A stretch of DNA of 41,200 nt from Lachnospiraceae bacterium (GTDB taxonomy: Bacteria; Bacillota; Clostridia; Lachnospirales; Lachnospiraceae), in contig JAFQZU010000024.1 of NCBI GenBank assembly GCA_017405805.1, positions 1 to 41,200 of the forward strand. The letters are read 5' to 3'. Both the position numbers and the translations under genes were made by a program. The notes under the pieces are model-generated. The model was given only the letters and a program-made list of their open reading frames with translations. It searched no databases and was not told the DNA's origin. Positions 5,064 to 30,758 of this stretch are shown here, piece after piece (position 1 is the first letter of the stretch; the number at the start of each line of letters is the position of its first letter).

Positions 5064-5103
5064 GTTCTGTCTTCCTATCCGTCCTGTAGATATATCGCAC
5101 AGA

Positions 5104-5133: not shown

Positions 5134-5170
5134 CCTCATCATGCAAGATTTGGATTTTTATTCCGCTGTC

Positions 5171-8100
5171 TTATTTTTTGATCTTTACCGAACGCTTGGA
5201 GCTCCAGTCGGAGTAGTAATTCTTACCGGACACTCTCTCGTACGCGCGCACCTGTACGTAATAGGTCTTGCCCTTCGTGGCAGCGATCACCTTGGACAGG
5301 GTCTTAGCGTTGACCGTAACAGTCTTTGCACCGCTCATGTTCAGGTTCTGGCTGTAACGGATCTGGTAGCCGGTCGCCTTTGCATTCTTTGTGTAGGTGA
5401 CAGTCATTCTGCCCGCGGCTGTGTTTTTGACGGGAGATACTGTCGGCGCGACCAGACGATAAATACTGACGGTCTTTGAGAGCGTGCTGTAGCCTACATT
5501 CTTCGTGTATGCCATGACCTTGTAGGTGTACTTAGCGCCGTTCTTTGCCTTAACCGCGGTATCCGTAAAGGTCAGGGTGTTCGCATTCGCGATGGTCTTG
5601 ATCAGCGTGCTGCCGCGGTAGATCTTATATCCGGTTGCGCCCTTCCCGACCTTGCTCCAGGTCAGCTTCACGCCGGAAGCCGTATTGGCGGCTTTCACCG
5701 CGGTCGTCGCGCCCGGCACTACCTTGACGGTGATCGTCTTGGAAGCGGCGTTGTAAAGATCTGTCTCCTCACTGGTCACGGTAAACTTAACGATGCCTGC
5801 GCTCCTTGCGGAGATCTTGCCGGTGCTTCCAACGACCGCGACGGATTCGTCCGAAGAAGTAAAAGTCAGTTTCCCTTTTGCTCCCGTGACGGTAAGAGAG
5901 GATTTTGTGCCTGCCACGATCGGGGAAGCCTCTGCTTTGACGCTCAGCTTCTGCTCCTGCTTTGTAAACTCAGCCGAAGTGCCGCGCAGGACATAGTTGT
6001 CACTGCTCAGTGCAACGGTATAGACGGTTCCGACCGTCGGTTCACCGTAATTTTTGGTCGTTCCGGCATTGTTCGTTACGGATCCGGCCGCAATGGTCAC
6101 CTTGCCGTCTTTCACATCGGCAGGTACCGGATCGATCGTATCATCTTCAGTGTCTACGGTAAGGGGCGTCAGATAAATCGTCTCAGAGCCCCTGCCTGCG
6201 GAATAATAAACATTTGCTTTAACATTCTGCGCATCTTCCGGAATACCTGTGATCGTGAGCTCATCGGCATCCGTAAATGCCGCGGTGATCTCACCGGTGT
6301 AAACCTGCATGATCTGCGCGTCCACCGGATAGTCATACACATAGTTTGCATAAGAAGGCGCTGCGCCGTCCGTCAGGTCGCCGTCCTTGACCATGCAGTA
6401 GAAGCGGACGTTGGTGATCTTTTTGCCGTCCAGACCCACCAGCGCATCGGCATTCCAGGCCAGCTGCGTGCCGCGCCAGATCTGGTCCAGGTGATACAGG
6501 CCTGCCTGCGTGCCGTCATCGGCGGTCAGCACGATCGCGCTGACAAGTTTGTCCGAAACTTCCGATGCCGTGACATTCATCTGGACGTCACCCCAGTGTG
6601 AGCCATAAATGACATCCACGTCGGCCGCGCTCATCTGTTCCGCACCGCCTGCCGCGGAGAAGCTGCCGTCCTTGAGTTCCATGTAGGAAGACGGTGCCTC
6701 GTCCAGCAGATAGTAGGAGTATGCAGGCTGTTCCGCAAGTGCTTCATAACCTACCAGTGTCTGGGAGGAAACGCTTCCGTGCCCTGCCGTAGCTGTCACG
6801 ACGCTGCTCTCATCGGTCACCTCATTGCCGCCCAGAGCCTGGATCTCCTCCAGTTTGTCTGCCTTGACCGCCCAGATCACGCCCTGCATCTTGGAGCCGT
6901 TCGCACCGCCTACAGCGTTGCCGGACTCGTCCGCTGTCGTGCCGCTGTGGAAGGCGCCGCCGGCAAAACTGTAGTTGCCTGTCTTGTTGGTGGCAGAGGA
7001 TACCGCGTCGACATCCGCCACGCTCGCTCCGGACGTGCCGTAGAAAGTGCTGTAAGGGATGTTCACCAGCGCGTAAACTGTCTCGTCATAATCAAAAGTC
7101 GTGGTGTACGGCGCATAATTGTCACTCTCGATGGTAACGGTATAGGTCGCCGTGACGAGCTTGTTGACAGAGGTGTCCAGTTCCACTTTTCCGTCTGTCA
7201 CTGCTGCCTGATCAGCATAGGTGTACGTTACACGCTGTCTTCCCGTGCCTTCTGTGCGGGATACGCTGACGCGGGGATTGACGAAGTCATCCAGACCGCC
7301 GGTCAGTTCCACTGATTTCCTGTCCTTGGAAAGTGCCGCTTGTACCAGCCAGTCATAGGATTCTTTCACCTGTATGTCAGCCGACACCGTATTGTATCCC
7401 TTTGCGTAAAGTGTCACGGTGTACGTGCCGGCTTTGAGCTCCGGTTTTTCATTGTGGTACATGGCGGCAAAACGATTGACCTCCGATGCGTTGGATCCCT
7501 TCGAAGTGCCGTTGTTGACCGCGATCTCCACCTTGTTGTAATGGGGGCCCGCCGTCGCGCTCTCGCCGTAGAGATCGACCCACCACACGGCGCCCGCGCT
7601 GTTGGATCCGTCTGAGATCACCGCCGCATAGAGCGCGTTCTTATAATCGGTCCAGACATAGCCGTCCACGGATTCGTCCATGTTGATGACAAATTCGCCG
7701 TCGCCGTAATTGCAGCTGTAGTTATAAGAAGCCGCGGCGACTTCGACGTTGCCGCCCGCGTAAGAATTAGCAGCAGTCGGGTCCTCGTTCAGTTTTATAT
7801 CTTCCAGGATCTCCATCTGCCCTGGAGTCAGTTCTTTCCCGGCGGCCTGCAGAACGGAAGCTTCCACATACTCAGGAGCATCGACATTCACATCCTGCAC
7901 GATCCCGTGGATCCCCTCGTCGTCTCTTGCAATGATTGCAGGGATGTCTCCCGCATGGCGGGAAGCAAAAGCCGTTGCGGAAGTGATCGCGTCGTAATCC
8001 TGGGCCGATGCGTTCACGCCGACTGACTGGTAAAAATCAGAATACCTCTGGATCGCTGTTCCGTAGACCTTCCCTGTCAGCGGCTCCGCCGAATAATATC

Positions 8101-8788
8101 CGATTCCGGTCTCCCCGATCATCGTGAAATCCGCAGCCGCGTGCTCTGTCTCTCCGACCAGCACCTTGATCTCTCCCTCTCCTGCTCCGGAGAAGTCTGC
8201 CCATGCATACTCCCTGCCGGCGATCTCCACCGTATTTGCAGTGATGACCGCAGCGTCAGCGGTGCTTTCCTGCACCGTTTCCACGTCGGCGGACTCGGCT
8301 GTCACGTCCTGCGTCTCACCCTGTGCGGAAGTCTCCGCAGCAGTTTCCGCCTCTGCTGCGGGCTGCTCCTCTTCAGCAGTTTCCGCCTCTTCCTCGGACT
8401 GTTCCTCCTCAGCGGTTTCGGTCTCTGCTGCGGACTGCTTCTCTTCCGTCGTCTCTGCCTCCGCTACGGGCTGTTCCTCTTCAGCTGTCTCCGCCTCCGC
8501 TGCGGGCTGTCCCTCTTCAGCTGTCTCCGCCTCCGCTGCGGGCTGTTCCTGTTCAGCTGTTTCCGCCTCCGCTGCGGGCTGTTCCTCTTCAGCCGTCTCC
8601 GCCTCCGCTGCAGGCTGTTCCTCTCCGGCCGGCTCTTCGGAGATCACTTCGGGCGCCGGCTCCTGCACTTGTTCCGTCACGCCCTCTCCGGTCTCCTCCG
8701 CCGCATTAACGGGGAGCGAAACCGAACCGAGCGTCATCGTGGCAGCAAGCGTCATGGCCAGCAATCTCTGTACATAATTCTTTTTCAT
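5171..8788 (-). CDS. Large secreted surface protein with two S-A-T motif modules, Ig-like and fibronectin III-like domains
   Basis: This 1205-residue protein has a signal peptide ending near VNAAEE (residue 31). Next comes a Glu/Ala/Pro repeat region (residues 56-151). Two similar modules follow, each with a Y-S-x-F-Y segment before a motif that resembles the FMN_bind acceptor site but has Ser for Gly: DAITSAT (Thr272) and DAVSSAT (Thr600). Between and after them lie beta-rich segments that remind me of the Treponema Tp47-type domain family (tentative). Then comes a Big_2-like Ig domain (about 955-1035) and two fibronectin III-like domains up to the C terminus. No LPXTG, SLH or choline-binding repeats are visible. 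It sits between apbE and the FMN carriers and has its own operator-like promoter. Inference: an outer-surface adhesin or acceptor-docking partner. Direct flavin binding is uncertain. Confidence 0.75.
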   Translation of the reverse strand: MKKNYVQRLLAMTLAATMTLGSVSLPVNAAEETGEGVTEQVQEPAPEVISEEPAGEEQPAAEAETAEEEQPAAEAETAEQEQPAAEAETAEEGQPAAEAETAEEEQPVAEAETTEEKQSAAETETAEEEQSEEEAETAEEEQPAAEAETAAETSAQGETQDVTAESADVETVQESTADAAVITANTVEIAGREYAWADFSGAGEGEIKVLVGETEHAAADFTMIGETGIGYYSAEPLTGKVYGTAIQRYSDFYQSVGVNASAQDYDAITSATAFASRHAGDIPAIIARDDEGIHGIVQDVNVDAPEYVEASVLQAAGKELTPGQMEILEDIKLNEDPTAANSYAGGNVEVAAASYNYSCNYGDGEFVINMDESVDGYVWTDYKNALYAAVISDGSNSAGAVWWVDLYGESATAGPHYNKVEIAVNNGTSKGSNASEVNRFAAMYHNEKPELKAGTYTVTLYAKGYNTVSADIQVKESYDWLVQAALSKDRKSVELTGGLDDFVNPRVSVSRTEGTGRQRVTYTYADQAAVTDGKVELDTSVNKLVTATYTVTIESDNYAPYTTTFDYDETVYALVNIPYSTFYGTSGASVADVDAVSSATNKTGNYSFAGGAFHSGTTADESGNAVGGANGSKMQGVIWAVKADKLEEIQALGGNEVTDESSVVTATAGHGSVSSQTLVGYEALAEQPAYSYYLLDEAPSSYMELKDGSFSAAGGAEQMSAADVDVIYGSHWGDVQMNVTASEVSDKLVSAIVLTADDGTQAGLYHLDQIWRGTQLAWNADALVGLDGKKITNVRFYCMVKDGDLTDGAAPSYANYVYDYPVDAQIMQVYTGEITAAFTDADELTITGIPEDAQNVKANVYYSAGRGSETIYLTPLTVDTEDDTIDPVPADVKDGKVTIAAGSVTNNAGTTKNYGEPTVGTVYTVALSSDNYVLRGTSAEFTKQEQKLSVKAEASPIVAGTKSSLTVTGAKGKLTFTSSDESVAVVGSTGKISARSAGIVKFTVTSEETDLYNAASKTITVKVVPGATTAVKAANTASGVKLTWSKVGKGATGYKIYRGSTLIKTIANANTLTFTDTAVKAKNGAKYTYKVMAYTKNVGYSTLSKTVSIYRLVAPTVSPVKNTAAGRMTVTYTKNAKATGYQIRYSQNLNMSGAKTVTVNAKTLSKVIAATKGKTYYVQVRAYERVSGKNYYSDWSSKRSVKIKK
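8336..8623 (-). repeat. 36-bp tandem repeat (8 copies) near the N terminus of the surface protein
   Basis: Eight tandem copies of a 12-residue unit close to EEQPAAEAETAE occupy residues 56-151. Middle copies are the most divergent (K-Q-S-A, E-Q-S-E variants). The unit probably forms an extended acidic spacer after the signal peptide. Such repeats usually vary in copy number. Confidence 0.85.
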
Positions 8789-8849
8789 CTGATGACATCC
8801 CTTCGTTTGTTTTCTGTCCGAAACATTGTATCTAATGCCTCCTGTGCAA

Positions 8850-8863
8850 TTAGCAAGTACTAA
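8850..8863. promoter_or_regulatory. TTAG-N6-CTAA operator-like site, proximal copy at the surface-protein gene
   Basis: TTAG (8850-8853) and CTAA (8860-8863) are spaced exactly 10 bp start to start, upstream of the start at 8788. The same arrangement occurs at 8894-8907 and 10131-10144. The shape fits a dimeric repressor such as a MarR-type protein, but no such gene is in the window. Confidence 0.5.
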
Positions 8864-8883
8864 CTTCAGACTAGATTAGTTTA

Positions 8884-8912
8884 ATTTAACCGGTTAGGAA
8901 TGTCTAATCCAA
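8884..8912 (-). promoter_or_regulatory. Putative promoter of the surface-protein/FMN-carrier unit with operator in the spacer
   Basis: On the minus strand TTGGAT (8907-8912) and TTAAAT (8884-8889) lie 17 bases apart. A TTAG-N6-CTAA inverted repeat (8894-8907) fills the spacer and touches the -35 box, so a bound protein would exclude RNA polymerase. Direction and spacing are seen; function is inferred. Confidence 0.5.
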
Positions 8913-8930
8913 ACAGACATTTATGAAGCC

Positions 8931-10085
8931 TTACTTTTCGATCCAGTGGATTTCCAGCCCGCTGGTAAAACTGTCCTTCAATCCTTCTGTCGCATACAGC
9001 TTTCCCTGCTGATCCATCAGGATCATGTCAAATGCGTCGCTGTGCTCTTCCCAATACTCCTGCGCCCTCTCACGGCCCATCACAAAAACAGATGTCGAAA
9101 GTCCGTCTGCCAGCGTGCCGTCCCCGCTCACCACCGTGGCGGAGATCAGATCCGATTCGGAAGGGTATCCCGTAGACGCATCCAGAATATGGTGATAGAT
9201 CTTTCCGTCCTGCTCAAAATAGCGCTCGTAACCGCCGGAGGTGATCACTGCCTTGTCCTGTGCGGCGACAATTCCGATAAAGTCTTCCGCCTCCACGGCC
9301 TTCGCCTCTTCGCTGCTTTCATCGAGCCATGGAATCGCTCCGTCCTGGGTCGATTCCGGCCTGCGGACCGCGACGCGCCAGTCACTCCCGTCGGGCTTAC
9401 CGCCCACTGCCTGCACATTGCCTCCCAGGTTGATCAGACCTTTGACACTATGCTCCTCAAAGATTTCCGCGGCGCGGCTCGACGCGTACCCTTTCGCGAT
9501 GCCGCCCAGATCGATCTGCACGCCCGCTTTGTCAAACATCACTTTCTTTTGATCATCCGTCAGATGAATGAAGCCGGAATCGACCAACTGCAGTGTCTTT
9601 TCGAGCGCTGCCGGATCGGGGACACGGTATTCCTCAGAGGTGAAGCCCCAGAGTTTTTTGACGGGATAGATGGTGATCTCAAAGGCGCCCTCTGTCTCGT
9701 CGTGGAGCGTCTTCGCTCTCTCTATAAGATAAGCCGTGTCTTCGGAAACGGGCCCGTCGCCGTTTTTGTTTAAGACGCCGATCTCGCTGTCCTCCCGCTC
9801 CGCCGCCAAAAGGGCATCCAGCCGCGTAATCTCCTCAGCCGCCTCCTCCACTGCTTCCTCTGCTTCTTCGCCGTATGCACTCAGTGTCATGTAGGTATCC
9901 ATGGCGAAGATTTCTTTGGTGAGAATTTCGTCTTGTTCCTTCAGTTCCTGCTGTCCGTCTTCGCTGCCGGCGGAAGCAGTCTGCGTCTTTTGCGCTGCCG
10001 CTTCTTCCTGCGATGTTTTGCCGCAGGCGCAGATCATAAGACAGCAGGCCGCAATAAACGTGATAATAATGAATTGTTTTTTCAT
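8931..10085 (-). CDS. apbE: FAD:protein FMN transferase (ApbE family lipoprotein)
   Basis: This 384-residue protein has a lipoprotein signal with a lipobox-like I-C-A-C at residues 18-21, so it should be anchored outside the membrane. It carries the ApbE hallmarks in order: MDTYMTLSAYG, QIDLGGIAKGYASSRA, INLGGNVQAVGG, the SGGYERYFE segment, HHILDASTGYPSES and the metal-binding DGTLADGLSTSVFVMG region. ApbE cleaves FAD and attaches FMN to Thr of S/T-G-A-T motifs. Its substrates are almost certainly the six FMN_bind domains encoded just downstream. Length is normal for Gram-positive lipoprotein members. The start has a GGGATCC-type purine stretch upstream and its promoter holds a TTAG-N6-CTAA element. 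Confidence 0.95.
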   Translation of the reverse strand: MKKQFIIITFIAACCLMICACGKTSQEEAAAQKTQTASAGSEDGQQELKEQDEILTKEIFAMDTYMTLSAYGEEAEEAVEEAAEEITRLDALLAAEREDSEIGVLNKNGDGPVSEDTAYLIERAKTLHDETEGAFEITIYPVKKLWGFTSEEYRVPDPAALEKTLQLVDSGFIHLTDDQKKVMFDKAGVQIDLGGIAKGYASSRAAEIFEEHSVKGLINLGGNVQAVGGKPDGSDWRVAVRRPESTQDGAIPWLDESSEEAKAVEAEDFIGIVAAQDKAVITSGGYERYFEQDGKIYHHILDASTGYPSESDLISATVVSGDGTLADGLSTSVFVMGRERAQEYWEEHSDAFDMILMDQQGKLYATEGLKDSFTSGLEIHWIEK

Positions 10086-19021: not shown

Positions 19022-21178
19022 TTACATGAGCCCTCTCTTCTCTGCGATGATCACGGCGGTATGCTTGACCTCCATCGGGATGTCTCTCGCATCCAGTCCG
19101 CCGCTGATCTGCATCATGCAGCCGGGGCAGTCGACGGCGACCATATCGGCGCCTGTCTCTTTGATATGCTCGATCTTCTTGGCGAGGATCGGGGAAGCCA
19201 CTTCGGGGAACTTGATGCTGTATGTGCCGCCGAAGCCGCAGCATACGTCGCTTTCCTTCATCTCGGTGATCTTGATTCCCTTGGTGTGGGAAAGCAGCTC
19301 TCTCTGTTCCGCGAACACGCCCATGCTCCTCTTGAGGTGGCAGGAGTCATGATACGTGATGTTGATCTCCTTGTCGTCGCCCTCGTCCGCGAGACCGCCG
19401 AGCATATGGAAGAGTTTGCAGAAGTCATAGGACTTGTCGCCCAGTTCCTTCGCCTTCTCATAGTACTCCGGATCATCCTTGAGCAGTTCCTGATACTCAC
19501 GCAGCTGATGCGTGCAGGTAGGGCATGCGGAGACGATGTAATCGTAATTTCCCGCATCCATGGCGTCGACGTTGAGCTTGGCCGTCTTGACGGCGTTTTC
19601 CACGTCGCCCATGTAGGTCGCGGGCGCGCCGCAGCAGGACTGGCCCATGGGCATATCCACCAGATATCCGATGGAGTTGAGATCCTTGATGACCGCTTTG
19701 GCCGTGTCGATATAGACGAAATCGAGGAGGCATCCGGTAAAGATCGCGATCTTGCCCTTCGGGTTCGGGACATCCTGACGAATGGTCGGGAACACATCCC
19801 TGAACGGTACCTGTGCGATCTTGGGAAGGCTTCTCCCCTCGGACATGCCGGAGAGGAACATCGGAAGATGCCTCATCATCGGTGCGCCGTCCATAAAGGC
19901 GGGCTGTGCGACGGAAGCGATCCTCAGCATGGAGTGGAACAGCTTTCTGTCGCTGACCGCATCCAGTGCGAATTTATAAGTCGGATTCGGATGAAGCCTC
20001 GTGCTTCTCTCACGCAGCTTCATGATCATCTCCGGAATGTGGAGACCGCCGCCGCAGACCTCTTTGCAGCGTCCGCACTGCAGGCAGATATTCTGGATCT
20101 GCTCCGCGCGCTCCTCCGAGACGAGGAAGTGCGACAGGATCGTTCCGATACCGCCGGTGTATACGTTACTGCCGTATACGTGGCCGCCCAGCAGGGAGAA
20201 TGCGGGACATACGTCCAGACATGCGCCGCAGCGGATGCAGTCGTAAACTTCACGGAAGGTCTCGTCCGCAAGGATCTCTCTTCTGCCCGGATCGTCCAGG
20301 ATCACGCAGTAGAATTCCTTGGGTGCCTTCTCGTCGGTCTCTTTGTCAAGACATACCTCTGTCGCGCCGGTATACAGGGACAGATACGCGGTCAGTCTCT
20401 GTGCCGTGCCGTTGCGGGGCAGCGCCTTGAAGATATAGCGCGCATCGCTCAGGCTCTTGACGAATTTCTCGATACCGAACACATACAGGTGGATCTTGGG
20501 AAGGGTTCCGACCATACGGCCGTTTCCTTCGTTGGTCATGGTGAAGACCGTGCCGGTCTCTGCCACTGCCACGTTCGCGCCGGAAATACCCATATCCGCA
20601 TGGGTGAATTTCTCTCTCATCACCTTTCTGGCCGTCTTGACTTCCTCGGCGATGATCGGCTCGTTCTTCTCTTTGGTATAATCCGTGAACAGATCCGCGA
20701 CCTGCTCCTTGTTCAGGTGCAGGGCAGGCATGACCATATGTACGGGCGTGTTGCCCTCAAGCGCGATGATGAACTCGCCGAGGTCCGTCTCCTGGACCAG
20801 AACGCCGTCCTCTCCGAGGACCTTGTTCATGTGCAGTTCTTCCGACGCCATCGATTTGGATTTTACGATGGTCTGCACGCCTTTTTCCTTAACCAGTTTG
20901 CGGATATAATCCATCGCCTCGTCCGTGCTGCCCGCATGGAAGACGTGGCCGCCGCGCGCCGTGCAGTTCTTTGTGAACTCCTCGATCATCTCATCGACGT
21001 GCTCCGCGGCATATCCTTTTACTCTGCGGATATTGTCCCTTGTTTCCTCGAAATCAACGCCGTCATAGGATTTCAGACGTCTCTCGGGATAGGTCTCGCA
21101 GAATTTTCCGAGCGTCCTGCTGAGCGTAGTATTGCGCAGAGCGGACTGTATTTCCTGCTTTAAAGCTTCATTTGCCAT
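19022..21178 (-). CDS. Lactate utilisation LutB-LutA fusion protein
   Basis: This 718-residue protein joins what are two proteins in Bacillus. The N-terminal part is a LUD domain, followed by two 4Fe-4S motifs, CIRCGACLDVCP and CLQCGRCKEVCGG (LutB/LldF part). The C-terminal part has two CCG domains with SCCGAP and VCCGFGG (LutA/LldE part). With LutC it oxidises L-lactate to pyruvate without NAD and passes electrons towards the quinone pool. Similar fusions occur in lactate loci of Desulfovibrio. The ATG is preceded by GAGGAGGAAAGGGG. It follows lutC by 24 bases and precedes menA by 3 bases, tying the dehydrogenase directly to quinone synthesis. Confidence 0.92.
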   Translation of the reverse strand: MANEALKQEIQSALRNTTLSRTLGKFCETYPERRLKSYDGVDFEETRDNIRRVKGYAAEHVDEMIEEFTKNCTARGGHVFHAGSTDEAMDYIRKLVKEKGVQTIVKSKSMASEELHMNKVLGEDGVLVQETDLGEFIIALEGNTPVHMVMPALHLNKEQVADLFTDYTKEKNEPIIAEEVKTARKVMREKFTHADMGISGANVAVAETGTVFTMTNEGNGRMVGTLPKIHLYVFGIEKFVKSLSDARYIFKALPRNGTAQRLTAYLSLYTGATEVCLDKETDEKAPKEFYCVILDDPGRREILADETFREVYDCIRCGACLDVCPAFSLLGGHVYGSNVYTGGIGTILSHFLVSEERAEQIQNICLQCGRCKEVCGGGLHIPEMIMKLRERSTRLHPNPTYKFALDAVSDRKLFHSMLRIASVAQPAFMDGAPMMRHLPMFLSGMSEGRSLPKIAQVPFRDVFPTIRQDVPNPKGKIAIFTGCLLDFVYIDTAKAVIKDLNSIGYLVDMPMGQSCCGAPATYMGDVENAVKTAKLNVDAMDAGNYDYIVSACPTCTHQLREYQELLKDDPEYYEKAKELGDKSYDFCKLFHMLGGLADEGDDKEINITYHDSCHLKRSMGVFAEQRELLSHTKGIKITEMKESDVCCGFGGTYSIKFPEVASPILAKKIEHIKETGADMVAVDCPGCMMQISGGLDARDIPMEVKHTAVIIAEKRGLM

Positions 21179-21967: not shown

Positions 21968-23149
21968 TCAGCGGCCGCTTCCGTAAGCAAACCCGACCCG
22001 CAGAATCTGTCCGTCATACTCCCACCCGGTCAGACTTCTTCCCGCAGCATTGTCGGGAAGGTGGAAGCGTCTCGATTCGTTTCGGACCGTGAGCAGAAGA
22101 TCCCCCTCGTCCTTTTCGATCGCGATCTCAGCTGCGGAAGCGCCCGGCAGACGGATCTGTATATACCAGGTCCCGTCCGAGGGATCCCGCTCCATCGTAT
22201 AGACCTCTTCCATGGGAAAGATCTGCGCGGGATCGGTGCTGCCGTACAGGGCTTCCGCAGCTGCCGCGAGCATCTTCAGGCCGCGGATCTCCCTTTCCTG
22301 CAGCGGAAGGCGGAACATTTGCAAGCCGGAAAAATGCTCTGCCGCCTGTCCCATATATCTGTCCTGCAGGGCGCCGTACCCGGCAAAGTCTCCCCTCAGC
22401 GCCTCCTCCGGCCAGATCCGGTTCATGTACACCGCGTCCACGCCGTAATCGAAAGCGCTCAGCCACATATAGCTGCGTGCGGCCTCCCGGACCACGATCT
22501 GCTCGGGCGTCATCACGATCCGAAGGGTCGTCCTGCTGCGGTCCGTCAGGATCTCATGCAATACGCTCAGTCTCTTCACCAGTTTGTCCAGTTCCGTAAA
22601 AACAGCGTCCCTGGGCTTAGGCACCTCCGTCCGCCTGGAGATCAGTCCGCCGAAAGCACTCGTGATGCTTCTCAGAAGCGGCATGACCTTGTCCGACAGC
22701 ACGCGCAGCTGTTCCGGGTAGCGAAGGAGCGACAGCGTCTCCCCCGTGGGGGCGCAGTCCACGATCAGCACGTCGTACGCGTCTTCCTCGACGATCTCCA
22801 GGATCCGGAGAAGGGAGGCCAGTTCCTCCAGACCGGGAAACAGGAGCACCTCCTCCGCGTCGATCTGCCCTCTTTGCTTCTCGTCCAGGATCTGCCGAAG
22901 ATATCCCCTGACTTCGCCAAAAGCCTTCTCGCTCTCCTTTGCCATATCCACTTCCAGCGCGTCCAGACCGTCCGCGGCGCGCGTGATCTGCGCCCCGACA
23001 GGGATCTCCAGGCAGTCCGCCAGGGAATGTGCCTGATCCGTGCTCATAACCAGTGTCTTTTTCCCCTGCTGCGCGGTGCGGAGCGCGGTCGCGGCGGCGA
23101 TGCTGGTCTTGCCGGTGCCGCCTTTTCCTGTAAACAGAATGATTCTCAT
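21968..23149 (-). CDS. ArsA/Get3-family ATPase with C-terminal Hsp20-like domain (first of pair)
   Basis: This protein of 393 residues carries the deviant P-loop GKGGTGKTS, the DQAHSLAD switch segment and DCAPTGETLSLL, all signs of the ArsA/GET3 class. The last 75 residues form a beta-rich alpha-crystallin-like domain (IQIRLPGASAAEI, LLLTVRNE). I chose the ATG at 23149 because it directly precedes MRIILFTGKGG and has an AAAGGA site. Upstream in-frame codons run through a tandem repeat and are probably not translated. The CxxC of Get3 and arsenite efflux genes are absent, so arsenic resistance is unlikely. Pairs like this may form heterodimers that deliver or protect membrane proteins (inference). 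Confidence 0.82.
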   Translation of the reverse strand: MRIILFTGKGGTGKTSIAAATALRTAQQGKKTLVMSTDQAHSLADCLEIPVGAQITRAADGLDALEVDMAKESEKAFGEVRGYLRQILDEKQRGQIDAEEVLLFPGLEELASLLRILEIVEEDAYDVLIVDCAPTGETLSLLRYPEQLRVLSDKVMPLLRSITSAFGGLISRRTEVPKPRDAVFTELDKLVKRLSVLHEILTDRSRTTLRIVMTPEQIVVREAARSYMWLSAFDYGVDAVYMNRIWPEEALRGDFAGYGALQDRYMGQAAEHFSGLQMFRLPLQEREIRGLKMLAAAAEALYGSTDPAQIFPMEEVYTMERDPSDGTWYIQIRLPGASAAEIAIEKDEGDLLLTVRNESRRFHLPDNAAGRSLTGWEYDGQILRVGFAYGSGR

Positions 23150-23184
23150 GGAGAAGTCCTTTCCGGATGCTGCTGTCAAGTACT

Positions 23185-23270
23185 GGTATCTGTGCGTGCT
23201 GTCCTCGGGCGCGGTATCTGTGCGTGCTGTCCCCGCGCGGTATCTGTGCACATTGTCCCCGCAGGTATAT
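23185..23270. repeat. Degenerate tandem repeat between the two ArsA-like genes
   Basis: Copies starting at 23185, 23213 and 23239 share GGTATCTGTGC, followed by GTGCTGTCC or a close variant; a fourth, partial copy starts at 23264. Periods are 28, 26 and 25 bases. The array fills most of the gap between the genes and overlaps the far 3' end of the upstream one. Confidence 0.75.
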
Positions 23271-24484
23271 CACTGCGCCCCGGCGGGCAGAAAGAGAACT
23301 GTGAGGGCATCCTTTTCACGTCTTACTTCTTTGATGTCCATCTGCCGCAGTACATCCGGCAGCGGAATCCGTCGCAGGCAGTTTCCCGCCCGGATATCGA
23401 GGTCCCGTCCGAAGCGGGCGACCTCGGGTCCTCCGTCATCCTCGCCCGCAGAGGCGCCGCTGCCGTCCGCCGCAAGGCCCGGGAGCGCGACGCGAAGACG
23501 GTATCCGTCCCCTTCCGCTTCATAGGTCTCACCCGCGTCCCCGTCTGCCGCGGCAAAAAGTTCGTCCGGCCCCGGAAGCTCGGCGCACAGTTCCATGAGG
23601 GCCTGCCTGCCGCAGATCTCCGTCTCGTGCCAGCGGATCTTTGTGATCGGGATCTGTGAGAAGACCCGTTCCAGCTCGTCGATATATTCTCTCTGGATCT
23701 CTCTCCAGCGGGCCATAAAGGCATTGCCCTGCTGCTCCCCGATTACGCGGTTGATAAATACGCGCCCGACGTGATAGCCGTAGAGATTGAGATACATATA
23801 CGTCCGCTTCGTCTCCTCCACGACCATTTTTTCCGGAATACAGACGATCCGCACGCCTGTCACGGCGGGATCCCGCAGGATGCCCTGGAGCGCGTTCAAT
23901 TCTTTAAACAGGTCGGAGAATTCGTCCATCGCGCCGCCGTCCGGGAGCTGGACCTTGAACAGGGTTCCCGATACCGGGCGCAGGATCCTTGTCATCGCCT
24001 TTCCCACCGGAAAAAACTTTTCTATATACCAGGACAGCATCTCCGGAAGGCGAAGAAGGGACAGCGTCTCGCCGGAAGGCGCGCAGTCCACGAAGATGCG
24101 GCGGTAGGTTCCCTCCTCATAGATCTTTTTGATCTTCAGCAGCGAAAACAGGTCTTCAAAGCCCGGTACCATGAAGCGGCCGGCGGCGTCGGGAACGCTT
24201 TTTTTGCCGGAAAGCATCTCCAGTACAGCGCGGTTGACCTGGGGAAATTCCTCCTGCATGATCCGGAGGGGATCCAGCTCCAGAATATCCAGGTTCTCTT
24301 CGATCCGGGTCAGTCTGCCGCCCGTTTCCACCTCAAAAATGTCACCGAGATTGTGGGCCATGTCGGCGCTCACAAGGAGCGTTCGGTCGCCCATGCGCGC
24401 GCTTGTCAGTGCGTGGGCGCTGATCAGGCTCGTCTTGCCTACGCCGCCCTTTCCCGTAAATATCATGATCGTACTGCCGTTCAT
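23270..24484 (-). CDS. ArsA/Get3-family ATPase with C-terminal Hsp20-like domain (second of pair)
   Basis: This 404-residue paralogue of the previous gene has the P-loop GKGGVGKTS, ADMAHNLGD and DCAPSGETLSLLRLPE. Its C-terminal domain begins near GYRLRVALPGL and contains an acidic, glycine-rich insertion (about residues 345-358). It starts 18 bases after the VanX-like gene with an AAAGGGG site. Two divergent ATPases in series suggest a hetero-oligomer. Client proteins are unknown. Confidence 0.82.
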   Translation of the reverse strand: MNGSTIMIFTGKGGVGKTSLISAHALTSARMGDRTLLVSADMAHNLGDIFEVETGGRLTRIEENLDILELDPLRIMQEEFPQVNRAVLEMLSGKKSVPDAAGRFMVPGFEDLFSLLKIKKIYEEGTYRRIFVDCAPSGETLSLLRLPEMLSWYIEKFFPVGKAMTRILRPVSGTLFKVQLPDGGAMDEFSDLFKELNALQGILRDPAVTGVRIVCIPEKMVVEETKRTYMYLNLYGYHVGRVFINRVIGEQQGNAFMARWREIQREYIDELERVFSQIPITKIRWHETEICGRQALMELCAELPGPDELFAAADGDAGETYEAEGDGYRLRVALPGLAADGSGASAGEDDGGPEVARFGRDLDIRAGNCLRRIPLPDVLRQMDIKEVRREKDALTVLFLPAGAQ

Positions 24485-24502: not shown

Positions 24503-25162
24503 TTACCGCATCAGGATATCTGCTGTGACCGGAAAATCAAAATAGGTGTCCGGAAACGGCTCGTCCCTGAGGGTAAAATGCCACCACTCACAGTCGATCG
24601 GCGCAAACCCGTTCTTCACCATCAGATCCTGCAGGAACATCCTGTTTTCGTACTGCTCCGGGGTTATTCCCCTGTAGTCGGGGTGCGACACCTCGCTGAA
24701 ATGGTCGAAGGCGCTCCCCATGTCCACTTCCTTCCCGCTCGTCATATCCAGAAGCGTCAGGTCGATCGTACTCCCCCTGCTGTGACTGGACTGGTTTGCG
24801 ATATAGCCCTTTTCAAAGAGCTCCTGCTTCTGAAGATCCGGATAGAAAAAGGGCTTCATGCGCTGGTCCAGGTCGTCGACGCCCCACATCACGAAATGAC
24901 GCACGGCGGAGACAGGTCTGTAGGCGTCAAAAACCTTCAGCCTGTACCCCATCACATTCGCTTTATTGCTGACCTCCAGAAGGGCGCGGGCCGCCTCCTT
25001 GGTCGTGACGGCGCACGGCTGCTCGTAGCCGTTGATGCGTTCCCCCACAAAGTTAAATGTGGAATAGTAGCGCATTTCCTGTACGATCCCGGGTACAAGA
25101 TCCGAGAGCAGGACAAAATCGGAAACATCATTTACCGTATCTTTATAGTGATCTCTGACCAT
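24503..25162 (-). CDS. D-alanyl-D-alanine dipeptidase (VanX/DdpX-like, M15D)
   Basis: This protein of 219 residues matches the zinc dipeptidase family: VFDAYRPVSAVRHF, SSHSRGSTIDLTL with the first zinc ligands His and Asp, and CEWWHFTL with the catalytic Glu and third ligand. The ATG at 25162 is preferred over a GTG at 25174 because GGAGGT lies about ten bases upstream of the former. No signal peptide is seen, as in VanX. No vanA/vanB-type ligase, vanH or vanRS is near, so a role in D-Ala-D-Ala or dipeptide turnover is more likely than vancomycin resistance. Confidence 0.88.
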   Translation of the reverse strand: MVRDHYKDTVNDVSDFVLLSDLVPGIVQEMRYYSTFNFVGERINGYEQPCAVTTKEAARALLEVSNKANVMGYRLKVFDAYRPVSAVRHFVMWGVDDLDQRMKPFFYPDLQKQELFEKGYIANQSSHSRGSTIDLTLLDMTSGKEVDMGSAFDHFSEVSHPDYRGITPEQYENRMFLQDLMVKNGFAPIDCEWWHFTLRDEPFPDTYFDFPVTADILMR

Positions 25163-25215
25163 CGCACGCCACACCTCCGACCTGCATATTGTAGCATAAA
25201 ATGACGGTATATAAA

Positions 25216-25269: not shown

Positions 25270-27549
25270 TTATTGCGCCGGCGCCTCGCCTGTTTCTGCA
25301 GGCATCTCACCTTCTTCGACCGGTATCTCGCTGATCGCGGTAAACAGCTGTCCCAGAAGATCCGAGATCACCTGGTCCGGCTGGATGTCTCCCGTCTGTT
25401 CACCCTCAGGCTGCGCATACACAGCTTCTGTCTCACCGTCTTTGCAGCGGTGCACCGCATCCGCAATGCCCTCCGCATCAAACCACGGCACATTCTTCAC
25501 ATCGAGGATGGTAGGCATCATATTGTAATCCAGGGTGGTCGCTTTCTCGTCCGAAACAAACGTGCCCGCGTCATCTCCCTGCTGCGTACCGAGCTTGAGC
25601 ATGCCGGAATAGACGGCGCAGCGCCCGAACGCGTCGATGAAGGGTGCCACGACACAGTCGCCGCCGCCCGGATTCGTTCCGATCACCTTGGCAAGCCCTT
25701 CCTTCTGCGCGAAGTAAGGAAGTGCATTGGCGCAGGAATAGGAAGAACCGCTGCACATAATGAAGAAGTCATACTGTCCGCAGTACCCGTCCGCATCATC
25801 CGCGACGCCGTCGAGGTTGGTGTCCACGTGGTACCACTCTTCCCTGTAGCTCTCCGACACGAGATCCCGGTTCGTGAAGCACACCTCGCCGTCCGGCGAG
25901 AGGAAGCCGAGAATGGAGACCAGTCCGGTCGCACTTCCGCCGCCATTGTTGGACAGATTGATGACAACGTTCTTCACTTCTTCATGCTGCCCGATCTCCT
26001 CGAAGCACTTATGGAAGAAGGCGAAGCTGCTCTCTTCCTCATCCTCTTCCCTGATCGGATCGATATAGTAGGAAGGCATCCTCTTCGTCGAATCATCCTT
26101 GAACTGCTCAAAGTAGATCACTGCCGTATCACCGGAGAAATCAATTCTTCTGTCGCCGTAATCCTGCGGCTTATTGGCAGAGAGGAATGTGAGCCAGATA
26201 TAGAGCGGCGCGACTTCAGGGAGCTTGAGCCCCTTCTCAAGAAGCGCACCGATAATGACGTCCGCCTGCATCTCTTCGGGGGTCTTGGCCGTTTCCTCTG
26301 CCTCTTCGAAGATCTCTTTTCCGGCATCCGATTCCTTTATCTCGTCAGCAATGCCTCCCACTTCGGAGGCGCTGGGCTCTTCCAGTTCGCCAAAAACAGT
26401 CTGCATTCCAAGCAGCGCGTCATGTCCCGAATCAAACAGATAGTAGAACAGCATCGCCTCTGCCGTCGTTGCCGCCGTAATGTCGGTCGAGCAGAGCGCT
26501 TCCTTGGCGTTCATCCTAGTGAAGTAATCGTCAAAAGTCGTGATGTTCTTTTCTTCCTTATGCCCGAAAGTCAGATCCATCAGCAGGCAGATGGAATAAT
26601 AGCCATACTCCGCATACGCCTTGGTCATCTCTGTCTTTTCGCTGAAGGGCCCGCTGTACACAGCCTTGACATAAGGGCTGTCCTTGGCACCGGGATGGAG
26701 TTTCTGATCGGAAGCAAAATCCGTCGCTTCGAGGGCGTTGAAGTAATCTTTACCATTGTAGGCCAGGCAGTTGGACATCCTGATGCTGCCGAATACGTTC
26801 TGCAGCGCAAGGAAAGGCATCAGGATATCATCCTCGTACGGAATGACGGGGAGATGATACGCTCCGAGCGAGACCGAAAGGGGCTTTGCATCCGTCTGCG
26901 TGGACGCATTTTTCACGGAGGGCGTCACAACGTTGAACTCCGACCTGTCGACGACGCCGCCGTCCACGGTTTCGCATGCCCTGAAGCGCGAAGGATTGTC
27001 GATGGTGATCGTATCCGAAGCCGGATCGATCACGGTCTGCGAACCGTTCATATCCACCTTCATGACGCCGTTTTCCACAGAGATCTTTTCCTTGCCCTCA
27101 AGAAGCAGATGCAGGAAAGCGGACGCCGAGATAAAAGGCACATCCTCATATCCCTTCACGCCATAGGTGGTGATCGTATAATAATTACCCAGCGACAGCG
27201 TCGGATACAGCCTGCTGTCCTCCCATGTGACTGAGATATCCGAGGCCGGTATCTCATTCGCAGCCGTCGCTGCGGTATCCACAGGCGTGCTCTTCTCTGC
27301 CGGCGCATTCTCTTCTGCAGCCGTCTTCTCTTCTGCAGCTTCATCAGCGGCAGCCTTCTCTTCCTCTGCCGGTGCCTCAGCCTCGGCGGTTTCGTCTGTT
27401 CCGGCAGCCTCTTCTTCCGCAGCCTCTTCCGCTGTCTCCTCTGCCGGTGCGCTATCCGTCTTGGCTGCGCCTGTACTGCCTCCGCAGGCCACAGCAGTAG
27501 AGAGCATCACCAGCGACAGTCCAAAACAAATCAGTTTTTTCAACCGCAT
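25270..27549 (-). CDS. Lipoprotein with a C-terminal S41-like (tail-specific protease) domain
   Basis: This 759-residue protein has a lipoprotein signal (V-A-C-G-G, Cys22) and an Ala/Glu-rich linker to about residue 100. A beta-rich region follows. The C-terminal half looks like an S41 peptidase: NVVINLSNNGGGSATG, then CSGSSYSCANALPYF with the likely nucleophilic Ser, and GGGDCVVAPF. A repeat-free middle segment (about 280-470) is not recognised. No PDZ domain is obvious. It stands alone with its own terminator. Substrate is unknown. The identification rests on the order of these motifs, and the catalytic Lys is not placed with certainty. Confidence 0.7.
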   Translation of the reverse strand: MRLKKLICFGLSLVMLSTAVACGGSTGAAKTDSAPAEETAEEAAEEEAAGTDETAEAEAPAEEEKAAADEAAEEKTAAEENAPAEKSTPVDTAATAANEIPASDISVTWEDSRLYPTLSLGNYYTITTYGVKGYEDVPFISASAFLHLLLEGKEKISVENGVMKVDMNGSQTVIDPASDTITIDNPSRFRACETVDGGVVDRSEFNVVTPSVKNASTQTDAKPLSVSLGAYHLPVIPYEDDILMPFLALQNVFGSIRMSNCLAYNGKDYFNALEATDFASDQKLHPGAKDSPYVKAVYSGPFSEKTEMTKAYAEYGYYSICLLMDLTFGHKEEKNITTFDDYFTRMNAKEALCSTDITAATTAEAMLFYYLFDSGHDALLGMQTVFGELEEPSASEVGGIADEIKESDAGKEIFEEAEETAKTPEEMQADVIIGALLEKGLKLPEVAPLYIWLTFLSANKPQDYGDRRIDFSGDTAVIYFEQFKDDSTKRMPSYYIDPIREEDEEESSFAFFHKCFEEIGQHEEVKNVVINLSNNGGGSATGLVSILGFLSPDGEVCFTNRDLVSESYREEWYHVDTNLDGVADDADGYCGQYDFFIMCSGSSYSCANALPYFAQKEGLAKVIGTNPGGGDCVVAPFIDAFGRCAVYSGMLKLGTQQGDDAGTFVSDEKATTLDYNMMPTILDVKNVPWFDAEGIADAVHRCKDGETEAVYAQPEGEQTGDIQPDQVISDLLGQLFTAISEIPVEEGEMPAETGEAPAQ

Positions 27550-27703: not shown

Positions 27704-27940
27704 TCAGACTATGTACCTGTGATACTCATACCCCTGTTTCCAGGCCAGATACTTGGCGCTTCTCGCCGTCACCTCCGCATAATAGCCGGTCAGACGGCTG
27801 TTGTACTCGATCTGGTCCAGGCTCCTCTTCATCTTTTCCATCTGATAGCGGTCGTATTCCATACTGCTTGCATACTCAAGAAACGTCTTCTGAGCGGCTG
27901 TACTGCTTATCACTGCGGTCCCTGCATTCTTCTTAGTCAT
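27704..27940 (-). CDS. 78-residue protein of unknown function
   Basis: This small protein begins with an excellent ribosome site (GGGAGGGCAGGGAG) at 27940 and ends before a strong terminator, so it is probably real. It is rich in Tyr, Lys and Glu, has no membrane segment and no Cys, and its middle looks helical (MEYDRYQMEKMKRSL). It lies 83 bases after the Cys-repeat membrane protein on the same strand; a promoter-like pair in that gap means it may also be transcribed alone. I do not recognise the family. Confidence 0.65.
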   Translation of the reverse strand: MTKKNAGTAVISSTAAQKTFLEYASSMEYDRYQMEKMKRSLDQIEYNSRLTGYYAEVTARSAKYLAWKQGYEYHRYIV

Positions 27941-28023: not shown

Positions 28024-29361
28024 TCAGTAACGCTTTACCTTCACCCTCCCTCTGTGGATGCTGTCCCGGAAGAATTCCTTGACCGAACAGCCCGCGCGGC
28101 CGGAAGAAGCACATGCGCATGCACAGGCACAGCTGGAAGCGCAGGCGCAGCTGGAAGCGCAGGAGGATGCGCAGGAGGAAGCACAGGAAGAGCGCGGCCG
28201 CGAGCCGCCGGAATGGCGGGGGCCTCCGTGTCGGTGACGTCCGCCAAAAGAGTGATACACCGGCACATTGACCACATTGACATGGATGTACGTATTGGGA
28301 GAATCACCGTAGCGATAGGTTCCGTTTCTGCTGTATTTCTCCGGCTTGATCAGGTCCTTCTCCTCGACGATTTCTTTGCTCTTGATCATGCTGCGCCCGC
28401 AGTAAGGGCAGTCGTCGCGTCCCTCTTCGCGGGCCGCGCCGCAGCTGGGACAGTTATCGTAATACTCGATCTTGGTGCGGGTGATCTTCTTCTCCGTGGC
28501 CGGTTCATCGTACGAATCGCTGCCGAAGCCAAGCCCGCCGGCAAGCCAGCGGAAGAATCTGACCAATGCCAGAATGGGCATGACGAAAAAGATGATCAGC
28601 ACAAACAGGCCGCCGATCACGGCGCCCCAGTCTTCTTCGTCTTCATAATAAGTGCTTCCGCCGCTCTGGGAAGAACTTCCCTCTGCCTGCCGGTCGACGG
28701 AAAAGGCAAAGGCGTCATTGGGATAGGCCACCGTAATATTGTAGCGCTGCCCCGCTCCGAGAGAGGCGGAGAAGACCAGATATCCGTTATCCTGTACGCA
28801 GTCAGGCTGCCATGCTCCGGCATGCTCCGCATTCCACCGGATGGTCAGATCCTTGACTTCGATCCCGTCAAACCAGGCCGGGGTATAGGCGAAGACCGTC
28901 TCTCCCTCCACGTACCGGTCGATCTGGTACATGTGATCCTGGACAAAGGAAAACTCAAAGCTCGCCACTTCATCCGCATAATAATCGCGGTCCAGATAGA
29001 CATGCAGGGCGGAACCCTTGTCCTCGATCCTGCTGATATTGTCTCCCAGGGCCGTGACTTCGGAGTGGTGGCTGTTGGGAACGCCGATATTCACCCATGA
29101 CAGCGGACCATACTCCTTATCGTCCAGCACCTTCCAGTCTATGTGGTAGGTCATCCGGAGCGAGGCGTCCTCCTGCACGTCCACGGTGATGATAAAATGT
29201 TCGATCTCATCCGTGGGGGACGCCGCTCTTGCCGGCATGACAAAGAGAAGCGGAAGAACCAGAAGGAATACGGTCAGGATAGCCGCCATGAAAAAGGCGA
29301 TCCCTTTCTTTTGGAAAAAGTCGTTTCTTGATGCGGAAATATTAAAGACAGTATTTCTCAT
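28024..29361 (-). CDS. Membrane-anchored protein with zinc ribbon and Cys-Ala-Ser-Ser repeat tail (likely radical SAM substrate)
   Basis: This protein of about 445 residues starts at the ATG at 29361 (GAGGAGGT upstream), which overlaps the stop codon of the radical SAM gene by one base. It has a signal segment (about residues 20-45), an extracytosolic beta-rich part that recalls DUF2207-like proteins, and a membrane segment (about 240-265). A CPSCG...CPYCG zinc-ribbon-like pair follows, then a His/Gly/Arg-rich stretch. The tail holds ten Cys, four in exact CASS repeats, then shorter AC steps. A basic C terminus (KVKRY) follows. Inference: the repeat tail is the target of the coupled radical SAM enzyme, giving thioether or similar links. 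Direct metal binding is an alternative. Confidence 0.7.
   Translation of the reverse strand: MRNTVFNISASRNDFFQKKGIAFFMAAILTVFLLVLPLLFVMPARAASPTDEIEHFIITVDVQEDASLRMTYHIDWKVLDDKEYGPLSWVNIGVPNSHHSEVTALGDNISRIEDKGSALHVYLDRDYYADEVASFEFSFVQDHMYQIDRYVEGETVFAYTPAWFDGIEVKDLTIRWNAEHAGAWQPDCVQDNGYLVFSASLGAGQRYNITVAYPNDAFAFSVDRQAEGSSSQSGGSTYYEDEEDWGAVIGGLFVLIIFFVMPILALVRFFRWLAGGLGFGSDSYDEPATEKKITRTKIEYYDNCPSCGAAREEGRDDCPYCGRSMIKSKEIVEEKDLIKPEKYSRNGTYRYGDSPNTYIHVNVVNVPVYHSFGGRHRHGGPRHSGGSRPRSSCASSCASSCASSCACASSCACACACASSGRAGCSVKEFFRDSIHRGRVKVKRY
28101..28196 (-). repeat. Short coding repeats of the CASS tail
   Basis: Codon-level repeats of about 12 bases (Ser-Cys-Ala-Ser) and 6 bases (Ala-Cys) are seen in tandem. 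Different synonymous codons are used, so selection for the amino acid pattern is likely, not just recent slippage. Confidence 0.6.
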
Positions 29362-30758
29362 CAGCAGTACCTCCTCAGCGGGCATTCCCCTGTCAGCTGC
29401 GCGGAAAAATCCCTGCGGGTCCGGCATTCGCTGCTTTCCCAGATCGTCTTCCAGTCATCTGTGAGCATATTTCCCAAGGGCCGGTCAGAGAGCCAGCTCT
29501 GGCAGGGCACCACGTTCCCGCCGGGCGTGACGGCCATGTTGGACAGGCAGGCGCCGCAGGACGGCGAAGGAATATTCAGTTCCTCAAACACCTGCTCATC
29601 GAGCCATCCCGGCGACGTGAAGGCGATCTCCATCCCGTTTTCGTGACAGTATGCGACGGCGCGGCGCAGGATCTCCTCCAATTCTTCGCTTGAAAGCTGA
29701 AGCGCCTCCGACTCTGCGCCCGCGGCGCTCCCCGTCGTAATGAGGCCGGAGCAGGTCACATAGATGACGCCGAGTTCGTGAAGAAATTCCAGCGTCTTGT
29801 CATACCCGCGGTTGAGTGTGCAGAGCGGCGTGTTGATGCTCACGGAAAGCCCCTGTGCCACCGCGTTCTTTATTCCCTCCAGCGTCTCCTCATACCGCGC
29901 GGCGCCGACCAGGCGGTTGTGGACCTCCGGATCGATATCGTAGAAGGTGATCTGCACGCTGTCCAGCTCAGCCTCCCGGAGTTTCCTGCAATACTCCGGC
30001 GTCAGGCGGATCCCGTTGGTGTTGATGCGGGAAATAAACCACCTCGCATAATGGACAAGCTCCGGAAGGTCCTCCCGCATGGTGGGTTCACCCCCCGTGA
30101 AGGTCACCTGCGGGATACCGGCTTCGCGGCACTTGTCGAGGATCGCTTTCCAGTCCTCCGTGGACAGTTCGCCCTCATCGGAGAGCTTCTGTCCGGCGGC
30201 ATAGCAGTGCACACACTTCTGGTTGCAGTGCCATCTGCCGTCCTTGGTCATAGCGCTGACCATCAGATCCATGCGGTGGGGCGCCTGCATATAGGGCGCA
30301 TAAGCGCCTATGTTCATGTAATGCACTTCCGTCGTCACTTCCTCACGGTAAGCGATCTGGCTGATCGTCGTGTAGATGGTATCGATATCCTCCTCCAGAC
30401 GCTTTTTGGAGAGGACGGGAACGATCTTCCGGACATGATTGGCGGTGCGGTTCAGAATGTTCCGGATATCCGCTTCCCCGATCTCTTTTCCGTCATAGCG
30501 GTTGGTCTCCCGGATGAGCTCTGCCAGGATCACCGCCCAGATAAAATTGACCGGCAAGATGTCCGTCCCGTTGATAATGGCTATGCTCGGACTGAACCCG
30601 TCTTCCTCTTCCTTTGGAGGAATCAGATGGATGCGGATCACTCCGGGTCCGTCGGGATTGAGTGTCGTGTGGAGCACTTCGCTGAACGTGGTCTCCATAT
30701 ACGATTTCAGATTGCGGACCGTTTTCGTGTTTCGGAATAGAAAGGGTATTTTTGTCAT
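29361..30758 (-). CDS. Radical SAM/SPASM-domain protein (peptide maturase type)
   Basis: This 465-residue protein has a long N-terminal part (1-165) that may bind the substrate, then the radical SAM motif CNQKCVHC (Cys178, Cys182, Cys185), the TFTGGEPTMRED loop and a C-terminal SPASM-like part with CGACLSNMAVTPGGNVVPC and a Cys-x-x-x-x-x-Cys end (ECPLRRYC). SPASM enzymes often modify peptides or proteins with extra Fe-S clusters. An AGAGAGG site precedes the ATG. The downstream gene overlaps its stop by one base, so the two products are probably made in a fixed ratio. Best guess: it modifies the Cys-repeat tail of that product. Confidence 0.88.
   Translation of the reverse strand: MTKIPFLFRNTKTVRNLKSYMETTFSEVLHTTLNPDGPGVIRIHLIPPKEEEDGFSPSIAIINGTDILPVNFIWAVILAELIRETNRYDGKEIGEADIRNILNRTANHVRKIVPVLSKKRLEEDIDTIYTTISQIAYREEVTTEVHYMNIGAYAPYMQAPHRMDLMVSAMTKDGRWHCNQKCVHCYAAGQKLSDEGELSTEDWKAILDKCREAGIPQVTFTGGEPTMREDLPELVHYARWFISRINTNGIRLTPEYCRKLREAELDSVQITFYDIDPEVHNRLVGAARYEETLEGIKNAVAQGLSVSINTPLCTLNRGYDKTLEFLHELGVIYVTCSGLITTGSAAGAESEALQLSSEELEEILRRAVAYCHENGMEIAFTSPGWLDEQVFEELNIPSPSCGACLSNMAVTPGGNVVPCQSWLSDRPLGNMLTDDWKTIWESSECRTRRDFSAQLTGECPLRRYC

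Follow-up and report, generated by a model that had tools for sequence, protein, structure and literature searches.

A gene for a radical S-adenosylmethionine (SAM) enzyme, P0002, and the gene that follows it, encoding the membrane protein P0001, form a conserved two-gene module in a stretch of 41,200 nucleotides from a Lachnospiraceae bacterium (assembly GCA_017405805.1, contig JAFQZU010000024.1, positions 1 to 41,200; this whole stretch is called the window here). P0001 ends in a cysteine-rich tail, and we propose, at a probability of about three in four, that P0002 is the enzyme and this tail its substrate, modified in place and not released. The pair occurs in gut and rumen Clostridia. Both genes were confirmed on the minus strand at the positions assigned to them in an earlier sequence-only reading, and the single base which that reading took to be shared by the stop codon of P0002 and the start codon of P0001 is base 29361, in TGATG. 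AGGAGG and TGA were present at 27 of the 27 junctions compared within the genus (L001-L027).

Co-occurrence of the enzyme and the tail

Among 99 relatives, the tail protein was matched in 29 genomes and, at E ≤ 1e-60, the enzyme in 28, the same genomes except G027, where its final 75 residues were found at a contig end. Both genes, whole or in part, were present in 29 of the 99, and neither was above threshold in 70. In G044 (L028:531-1701), the enzyme breaks off near residue 322 and is fused in a different frame to the tail, either by deletion or in assembly, and this locus is a probable remnant of an event in which enzyme and tail were lost together.

The pairing was equally regular over greater distances. 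A tail profile matched 25 of 299 genomes of the family, nearly all from different genera; one weak match (G541) was dropped as a chance or zinc-ribbon match, and the enzyme lay directly ahead of the tail gene in 24 of the 24 strong matches, window included. The 13 tail matches in 392 genomes of the order comprised three weak zinc-ribbon matches (G349, G189 and G267, dropped as chance or zinc-ribbon), the window, and nine others, with the enzyme upstream in all nine. From 391 genomes of the class we obtained 15 tail matches, dropped four weak ones (G902, G910, G936 and G1043) on the same grounds, and kept 11 (E ≤ 6.2e-6, window included). The enzyme was present in 11 of these 11 genomes and at the same locus in eight. 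None of the remaining three was accepted as an orphan tail: the pair is split by contig ends in G880 and G917, and transposase genes separate the enzyme from a target without its start in G996. The gene pair was also found in several other families of the class. Tail homologues lacking a radical SAM partner, which the sequence-only reading had named as evidence that would count against it, were absent from both the family and the class genomes.

A scan of public genome contigs gave at least 510 enzyme-related stretches at E ≤ 1e-3, some of them possibly from other radical SAM families, and the best 80 loci were kept. The tail gene was found downstream of the enzyme in 73 of these, and in the other seven the contig stops 361-1256 bases beyond it. 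Sarcina sp. DSM 11001 (L056) is one strain that bears the pair. Several of the 80 loci come from the same assemblies as the genus genomes, so the two sets of counts are not independent. Two tail proteins precede one enzyme in tandem in G923 (L171:727-2666), and a second, divergent tail gene accompanies one radical SAM gene in L124 (38-1327 and 2877-4151). A phage origin was considered and rejected, as the best segments of 12 loci from a scan of viral contigs were 24-35% identical, a level of generic radical SAM similarity.

The tail, the membrane protein and the radical SAM enzyme

The ten cysteines, placed by the sequence-only reading within about 35 residues, occupy residues 393-425 (33 residues), within the last 53 of P0001, and such a density did not arise once when the protein was shuffled 100,000 times. 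The strict CASS periodicity described in that reading did not hold. The actual tail reads CASS three times, then CACASS, CACACACASS and GRAGC, and thus mixes four-residue with two-residue steps. We picked 118 tail-bearing open reading frames (ORFs) from the loci in hand, using a pattern of two C-[AV] steps ahead of G-x-[AV]-G-C, and obtained 115 distinct tails, including that of L026, whose gene is frameshifted, and some whose genes are interrupted by the end of a contig. The residue after the 882 array cysteines is Ala in 867 cases and Val in 15, at most two cysteines per tail owing this to the selection pattern. The preceding residue is freer (A 523, S 333, G 23, H 3), and successive array cysteines are spaced by 2 (515), 4 (207), 5 (43) or 3 (2) residues. 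The final Cys lies eight residues past the last array Cys in all 115 tails; it is followed by S (96), T (18) or I (1), and 14-40 residues remain after it. Tails carry 5 to 11 cysteines with the final one counted, and the number of CASS units varies while the gene pair is kept, which was the outcome that the sequence-only reading had looked for. The CACACA..GRAGC core is nearly invariant; a Tyr takes one array Cys position in L162, and GRVGC stands in place of GRAGC in two tails.

Codon usage in the core was compared within the two types of tail, in pairwise counts that are not independent events. The 61 SS-type tails gave, over a core of 24 codons, 22,690 synonymous against 1,480 other codon differences, and the 54 GG-type tails gave 16,868 against 4,460. 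This predominance of synonymous differences indicates that the tail is conserved as protein and is not slipped DNA, and the variety of codons rules out slippage as the origin of the array. The SS and GG types require one change each on the enzyme tree (52 rows, 47 of them labelled), in which bootstrap support is not settled. Since no accepted tail match in the family or class genomes was without the enzyme and the pairing is regular, the tail is very probably the target of the enzyme, as the sequence-only reading had supposed.

The hydropathy profile of P0001 has two peaks, and the protein bears the zinc ribbon that was ascribed to it earlier (Table 1). A loose pattern for the ribbon was found in 98 of 115 relatives. 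The tail is probably cytosolic, and thus in the same compartment as the enzyme, because a first transmembrane (TM) segment is followed by an ectodomain and by a second TM segment with positive residues after it. An alignment of the ectodomain with 16 DUF2207 members by hhalign gave a probability of 95.9% and an E-value of 5e-9, in a single comparison and not a database search. The DUF2207 model PF09972 was matched by 9 of 50 P0001 homologues at E ≤ 0.01 (best E 1.7e-4), and P0001 itself scored 13.9 bits, below the gathering score of 24.4. By these profile comparisons we class the ectodomain as a remote relative of DUF2207. Neither DUF2207_C (Pfam) nor TIGR04222 matched P0001; two other NCBIfam models did so weakly.

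For P0002 we built an alignment of 52 homologues selected for spread (A6), in all of which PF04055 and PF13186 were matched at E ≤ 1. P0002 matched 67 NCBIfam families at E ≤ 1. The best 25 of them were all below their own cut-offs, from NirJ2 as the best match (109.3 bits, cut-off 500) downwards, and TIGR04133 also fell short of its cut-off (89.5 bits, 425 needed); the TIGR04340, NF038107 and SbtM models were not among these 25. Of the cysteines in the C-terminal region, C401, C419 and C459 are conserved throughout the 52 rows and C404 in 51 of them, and a further sequence, L025, has Gly at position 404. The earlier assignment to the SPASM type was upheld in part: PF13186 matches P0002, but the cysteine pattern looks more like that of a one-cluster twitch-type domain than like SPASM with its full seven cysteines. 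The spacing C404-x9-G-x4-C419 is one that we take to be a twitch domain pattern. The conserved N-terminal 170 residues are possibly a candidate leader-binding region with an RRE-like fold. An enzyme profile searched against PDB sequences matched 14 chains at E ≤ 0.001, with SkfB best (E 5.8e-18), followed in order by tetraether synthase, PqqE, BtrN, MoaA, 5wgg (which we take to be CteB), cytosylglucuronate decarboxylase and 5v1q (presumably SuiB), and last by another Fe-S radical SAM protein and anSME.

Table 1. Features of the gene pair and of two nearby peptidase genes, with positions in the window
Feature	Position	Strand or placement	Basis
P0002, radical SAM enzyme, 465 aa	29361-30758	-	PF04055 91.9 bits, PF13186 31.1 bits (Pfam)
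P0002 N-terminal region, aa 1-170, conserved	30249..30758	-	alignment A3; no convincing Pfam match
CxxxCxxC motif, C178/C182/C185	30204..30227	-	52/52 A6 rows
Invariant C336, candidate cluster ligand or catalytic Cys	29751..29753	-	52/52 A6 rows
Twitch/SPASM region, C401, C404, C419, C459	29382..29558	-	A6 conservation
AGGAGG, ribosome-binding site of P0001	29370..29375	-	within the last codons of P0002 (RRY)
TGATG stop/start overlap	29359..29363	-	kept in 26/27 genus loci L001-L027; L017 deviates
P0001, membrane protein, 445 aa	28024-29361	-	ORF sequence
TM1 or signal peptide, about aa 20-42, then ARA-A motif	29236..29304	-	hydropathy peak; topology inferred
DUF2207-like ectodomain, aa 46-225	28687..29226	-	hhalign and PF09972 matches of homologues
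TM2, about aa 245-271, positive residues after	28549..28629	-	hydropathy peak
Zinc ribbon CPxC...CxxC, aa 304-321	28399..28452	-	PF13240 E 0.0015, below cut-off
Cys array and cap, aa 393-425, CASS/CA units and GRAGC	28087..28185	-	882/882 array Cys then A/V, 115 tails
Conserved tail end, SVKEFF...	28027..28086	-	K[DE][FL] in 113/115 tails, RGY in 2
S41-type lipoprotein peptidase	25270-27549	follows pair in window	Pfam
M15 dipeptidase	24503-25174	follows pair in window	Pfam

Possible modifications of the tail

The regular co-occurrence of the two proteins suggests that P0002, a cytosolic twitch/SPASM enzyme, very probably remodels the cysteine tail for some job in the cell envelope. P0001 would expose its DUF2207-like domain outside the cytoplasm and keep its C-terminal tail in the cytosol. 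The enzyme may bind the conserved cap GRAGCS-x-K-[DE]-F and work along the Cys-Ala array, altering many cysteines, and the product would stay joined to the membrane protein, being neither cut off nor exported nor an antibiotic. A thioether of any kind, from Cys sulfur to carbon, is our tentative choice for the chemistry, held at somewhat less than an even chance. The residue after each array Cys is fixed as Ala or Val and the one before is freer, which points to a bond or to recognition at the following residue. A bond to the alpha carbon of that residue would perhaps give a ladder of six-membered thiomorpholinone rings, a ring known singly in enteropeptins. On the cytosolic side of the envelope protein, the modified tail might then be an element that is rigid, resists oxidation or binds metal, a role to which we attach low confidence.

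Two further pairings of a radical SAM enzyme with a cysteine-bearing tail were found. Among 21 DUF2207 loci of the order, only L194 had a Cys-rich tail, made of CSSCGGG repeats. In this second variant a different radical SAM enzyme, P0003, directly follows the CSSCGGG-tailed DUF2207 protein (L207:4438-7163); its nearest models are ACGX and SbtM, at 147 bits and below the cut-offs of 400 and 350. In the genus of the second variant, the DUF2207 protein was matched in 12 of 29 genomes, and a P0003-type enzyme adjoins 8 of 8 loci in which the tail was read as Cys-bearing (L209-L216), as well as L221. No P0003-like match was obtained in the loci of Cys-free DUF2207 proteins from five genomes of this genus (L218, L219 and L222-L228), or within locus L220, whose DUF2207 protein has two cysteines. 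The P0003 pairing recurs in one further genus (G286), with two cysteines in the tail, and P0003 was matched at E ≤ 1e-60 in 2 of 165 family genomes. In the class, 28 DUF2207 loci showed no Cys in the 20 tails that were visible, and none of the 28 contained a radical SAM-like ORF.

The third variant comes from a different family of the same phylum, was seen in two genomes of 164 in addition to the window (G1090 and G1208), and consists of a membrane protein ending in CACACACACASSGGCT and then a radical SAM gene (L266:160-2851, L267:169-2858). Its enzyme aligned with P0002 at 34% identity over 370 columns (hhalign, E 1.6e-46), has more SPASM-type cysteines, and carries Asn where P0002 has C336. 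The target aligned with the P0001 family at 98.4% (hhalign, E 6.4e-15) and weakly, at 39.2%, with DUF2207 proper. As both enzyme and target are related to those of the window, the third pairing branches distantly from the first, and the second is the more independent of the two. Radical SAM enzymes may have been used repeatedly and separately to harden the low-complexity, Cys-bearing tails of DUF2207-type membrane proteins or to give them a function. Each Cys-Ala step here would then be converted to a thiomorpholinone and the whole to a genetically encoded thioether ladder of variable length, facing the cytosol on an envelope protein. The pair would in that case be a protein modification system and not a pathway for ribosomally synthesized and post-translationally modified peptides (RiPPs), although we regard this combined proposal as doubtful.

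Several points weigh against in-place modification of the tail or against parts of it. Known sactisynthases act on short precursors, and the Cys-Ala array could simply bind metal. A ring between Cys and its neighbour has been described singly and not as a ladder. The cytosolic topology is based on hydropathy and the positive-inside rule only, and no PqqD or RRE model appeared in the 25 of 51 Pfam families shown for the homologues in A6. The second variant (CSSCGGG) breaks the Cys-Ala rule, and the third has neither the GRAGC cap nor C336. Given these variants, the cap and the Ala may serve recognition or reflect family history, and not be part of the chemistry.

A different product of the same enzyme is unlikely. 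Each array Cys would in that case become a thiooxazole or a similar heterocycle, with 4 Da lost per Cys, to yield a metal-chelating tail. A thiooxazole is formed from Cys and the residue before it, whereas the residue fixed in the array is the one that follows; SbtM, the radical SAM enzyme that would be the analogue, lies outside the best 25 NCBIfam families of P0002. Copper genes (CopA and CsoR) were seen beside one second-variant locus only, in G178, and the link to copper was rejected since they were missing from the other fetched loci of that genus. The idea draws on analogy with the MNIO enzymes of bufferins and with SbtM itself, to whose model P0003 showed the match given above. Membrane proteins of the TIGR04222 type, with Cys-dotted tails and MNIO partners, offer a close parallel (PMC12452194). 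The review PMC11002830 describes a thiooxazole-bearing product of a radical SAM-SPASM enzyme, and thiooxazole also figures in a table in PMC12452194.

It is improbable that the tail binds metal or Fe-S without being modified, with the enzyme acting elsewhere and its gene kept close for the sake of co-regulation or Fe-S sensing. Metals are indeed bound by CxC arrays and zinc ribbons. However, the regular co-occurrence with P0002 argues against it, as does the tie of the second and third enzymes each to a Cys tail, together with the Cys-free DUF2207 proteins of the second-variant genus, which are without the enzyme. A fixed Ala after each Cys would moreover be superfluous for binding metal.

Quite improbable, too, is an epimerase that inverts the Ala (or Cys) residues of the array to leave alternating D and L residues. 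The array does alternate two residues, and P0002 has an invariant extra Cys, C336; according to the available part of PMC8326336, peptide epimerases use a critical Cys, EpeE has two Fe-S clusters and PoyD acts in a 1,3 pattern. Epimerization would not, however, need Cys at every other place, and C336 may be a cluster ligand, the third variant having Asn there.

Modification of the retained tail by P0002 also accords better with the gene neighbourhood than a hidden RiPP. Neighbours were grouped in the best 80 loci using ORFs of at least 100 aa. The pair itself formed groups of 70 and 69 members and its antisense frames appeared in 12 and 10 loci; no other group occurred in more than 8 of 80, and no conserved exporter, protease or immunity gene was among them. 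The small groups, named from reading their sequences, included an ABC-type ATPase (8/80), a regulator-like family (8/80) and a MATE-like transporter (4/80), at scattered distances and some on either strand, and with these counts and distances a larger conserved operon was rejected. The lack of a conserved exporter or immunity gene fits a product that is retained and not exported. An antibiotic role is unlikely, in agreement with the sequence-only reading. That reading had also held that no protease gene is near, which proved incorrect: S41-type peptidase and M15 dipeptidase genes do lie near the pair, and neither is among the neighbour groups recurring in at least 4 of the 80 loci. Release of the tail as a signal or bacteriocin is very improbable: the tail does resemble a Cys-rich core, the window has a protease gene close by and the ATPase and transporter occur sporadically, but no exporter or other gene exceeds 8 of 80 loci, and the would-be core is preceded by an ectodomain, a TM segment and a zinc ribbon and followed by the 14-40 residues that lie past the last Cys.

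Other genes of the window were also noted. Just downstream of the pair lies a 78-aa ORF (27704-27940, minus strand) with no Pfam or NCBIfam match. On the same strand, 19022-21178 and 21968-24484 encode LdhH and two tandem ArsA/Get3-type ATPases, LdhH being the large subunit of a quinone-type L-lactate dehydrogenase with a match over the cut-off. In the region 1239-10085, also on the minus strand, NapH-like, RnfG/PplA-like (FMN-binding) and ApbE matches, none of which reaches its curated cut-off, suggest a flavin-based electron transfer cluster.

Comparison with known systems

The pair resembles the maturases of sactipeptides and ranthipeptides (SkfB, CteB, SuiB and PapB) in its radical SAM core with an auxiliary-cluster domain and in the Cys-rich target encoded next door. 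It differs from them in that the target is a protein of 445 aa with TM segments, an ectodomain and a zinc ribbon and not a short precursor of leader and core, and in that no exporter, protease or immunity gene is conserved beside it. Sactipeptides are treated in PMC8172795, and a mapping of radical SAM RiPP pathways lists repeat precursors such as TVGG and Asp-Cys (PMC9062424), so far as the available parts of these two papers go. QhpD is likewise a radical SAM maker of thioethers, called non-RiPP in the excerpts available, that acts on an enzyme subunit. In those excerpts QhpC, of about 9 kDa, is the small kind of subunit in quinohemoprotein amine dehydrogenase and no Cys-Ala array is described for it, and several Fe-S clusters, likely three, are reported for QhpD.

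Some radical SAM enzymes are likewise named after repeat or envelope-protein partners, a likeness taken from names only: ACGX (TIGR04340), CefB (NF038107), and TIGR04133/TIGR04134 with a lipoprotein. Kinship with DUF2207 (PF09972) is confined to the ectodomain and distant, with P0001 below the cut-off of that model and without a DUF2207_C match. In a literature of mostly open papers, with few subscription journals and no preprints, we recognised no paper that describes this pair.

Functionally, the pair is closest to the system of the TIGR04222 membrane proteins, whose Cys-dotted C-terminal tails have been proposed as MNIO substrates (PMC12452194). There, too, a membrane protein has a low-complexity, Cys-bearing C-terminal tail and often an oxidative enzyme encoded next door. 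The partner, in contrast, is an MNIO and not a radical SAM enzyme, the tails are predicted to be periplasmic, more than a quarter of the proteins lack a C-proximal Cys, and not all have an MNIO partner (PMC12452194). That paper does not mention DUF2207 or SPASM, and radical SAM occurs in two of its references only.

From the sequences compared here we conclude that radical SAM modification of a Cys-rich sequence has probably moved, in this pair, from peptides to the tail of a membrane protein. Radical SAM/SPASM enzymes have mostly been studied as makers of small peptides, and the pair points to a resident membrane protein as substrate. The substrate is simple, repetitive and of naturally varying length, so that its chemistry could easily be tested, and the pair could provide a first handle on envelope proteins of the DUF2207 type. 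Taken with the parallel of TIGR04222 and MNIO, it suggests that the alteration of Cys-rich membrane tails by enzymes may be a general, little-noticed device.

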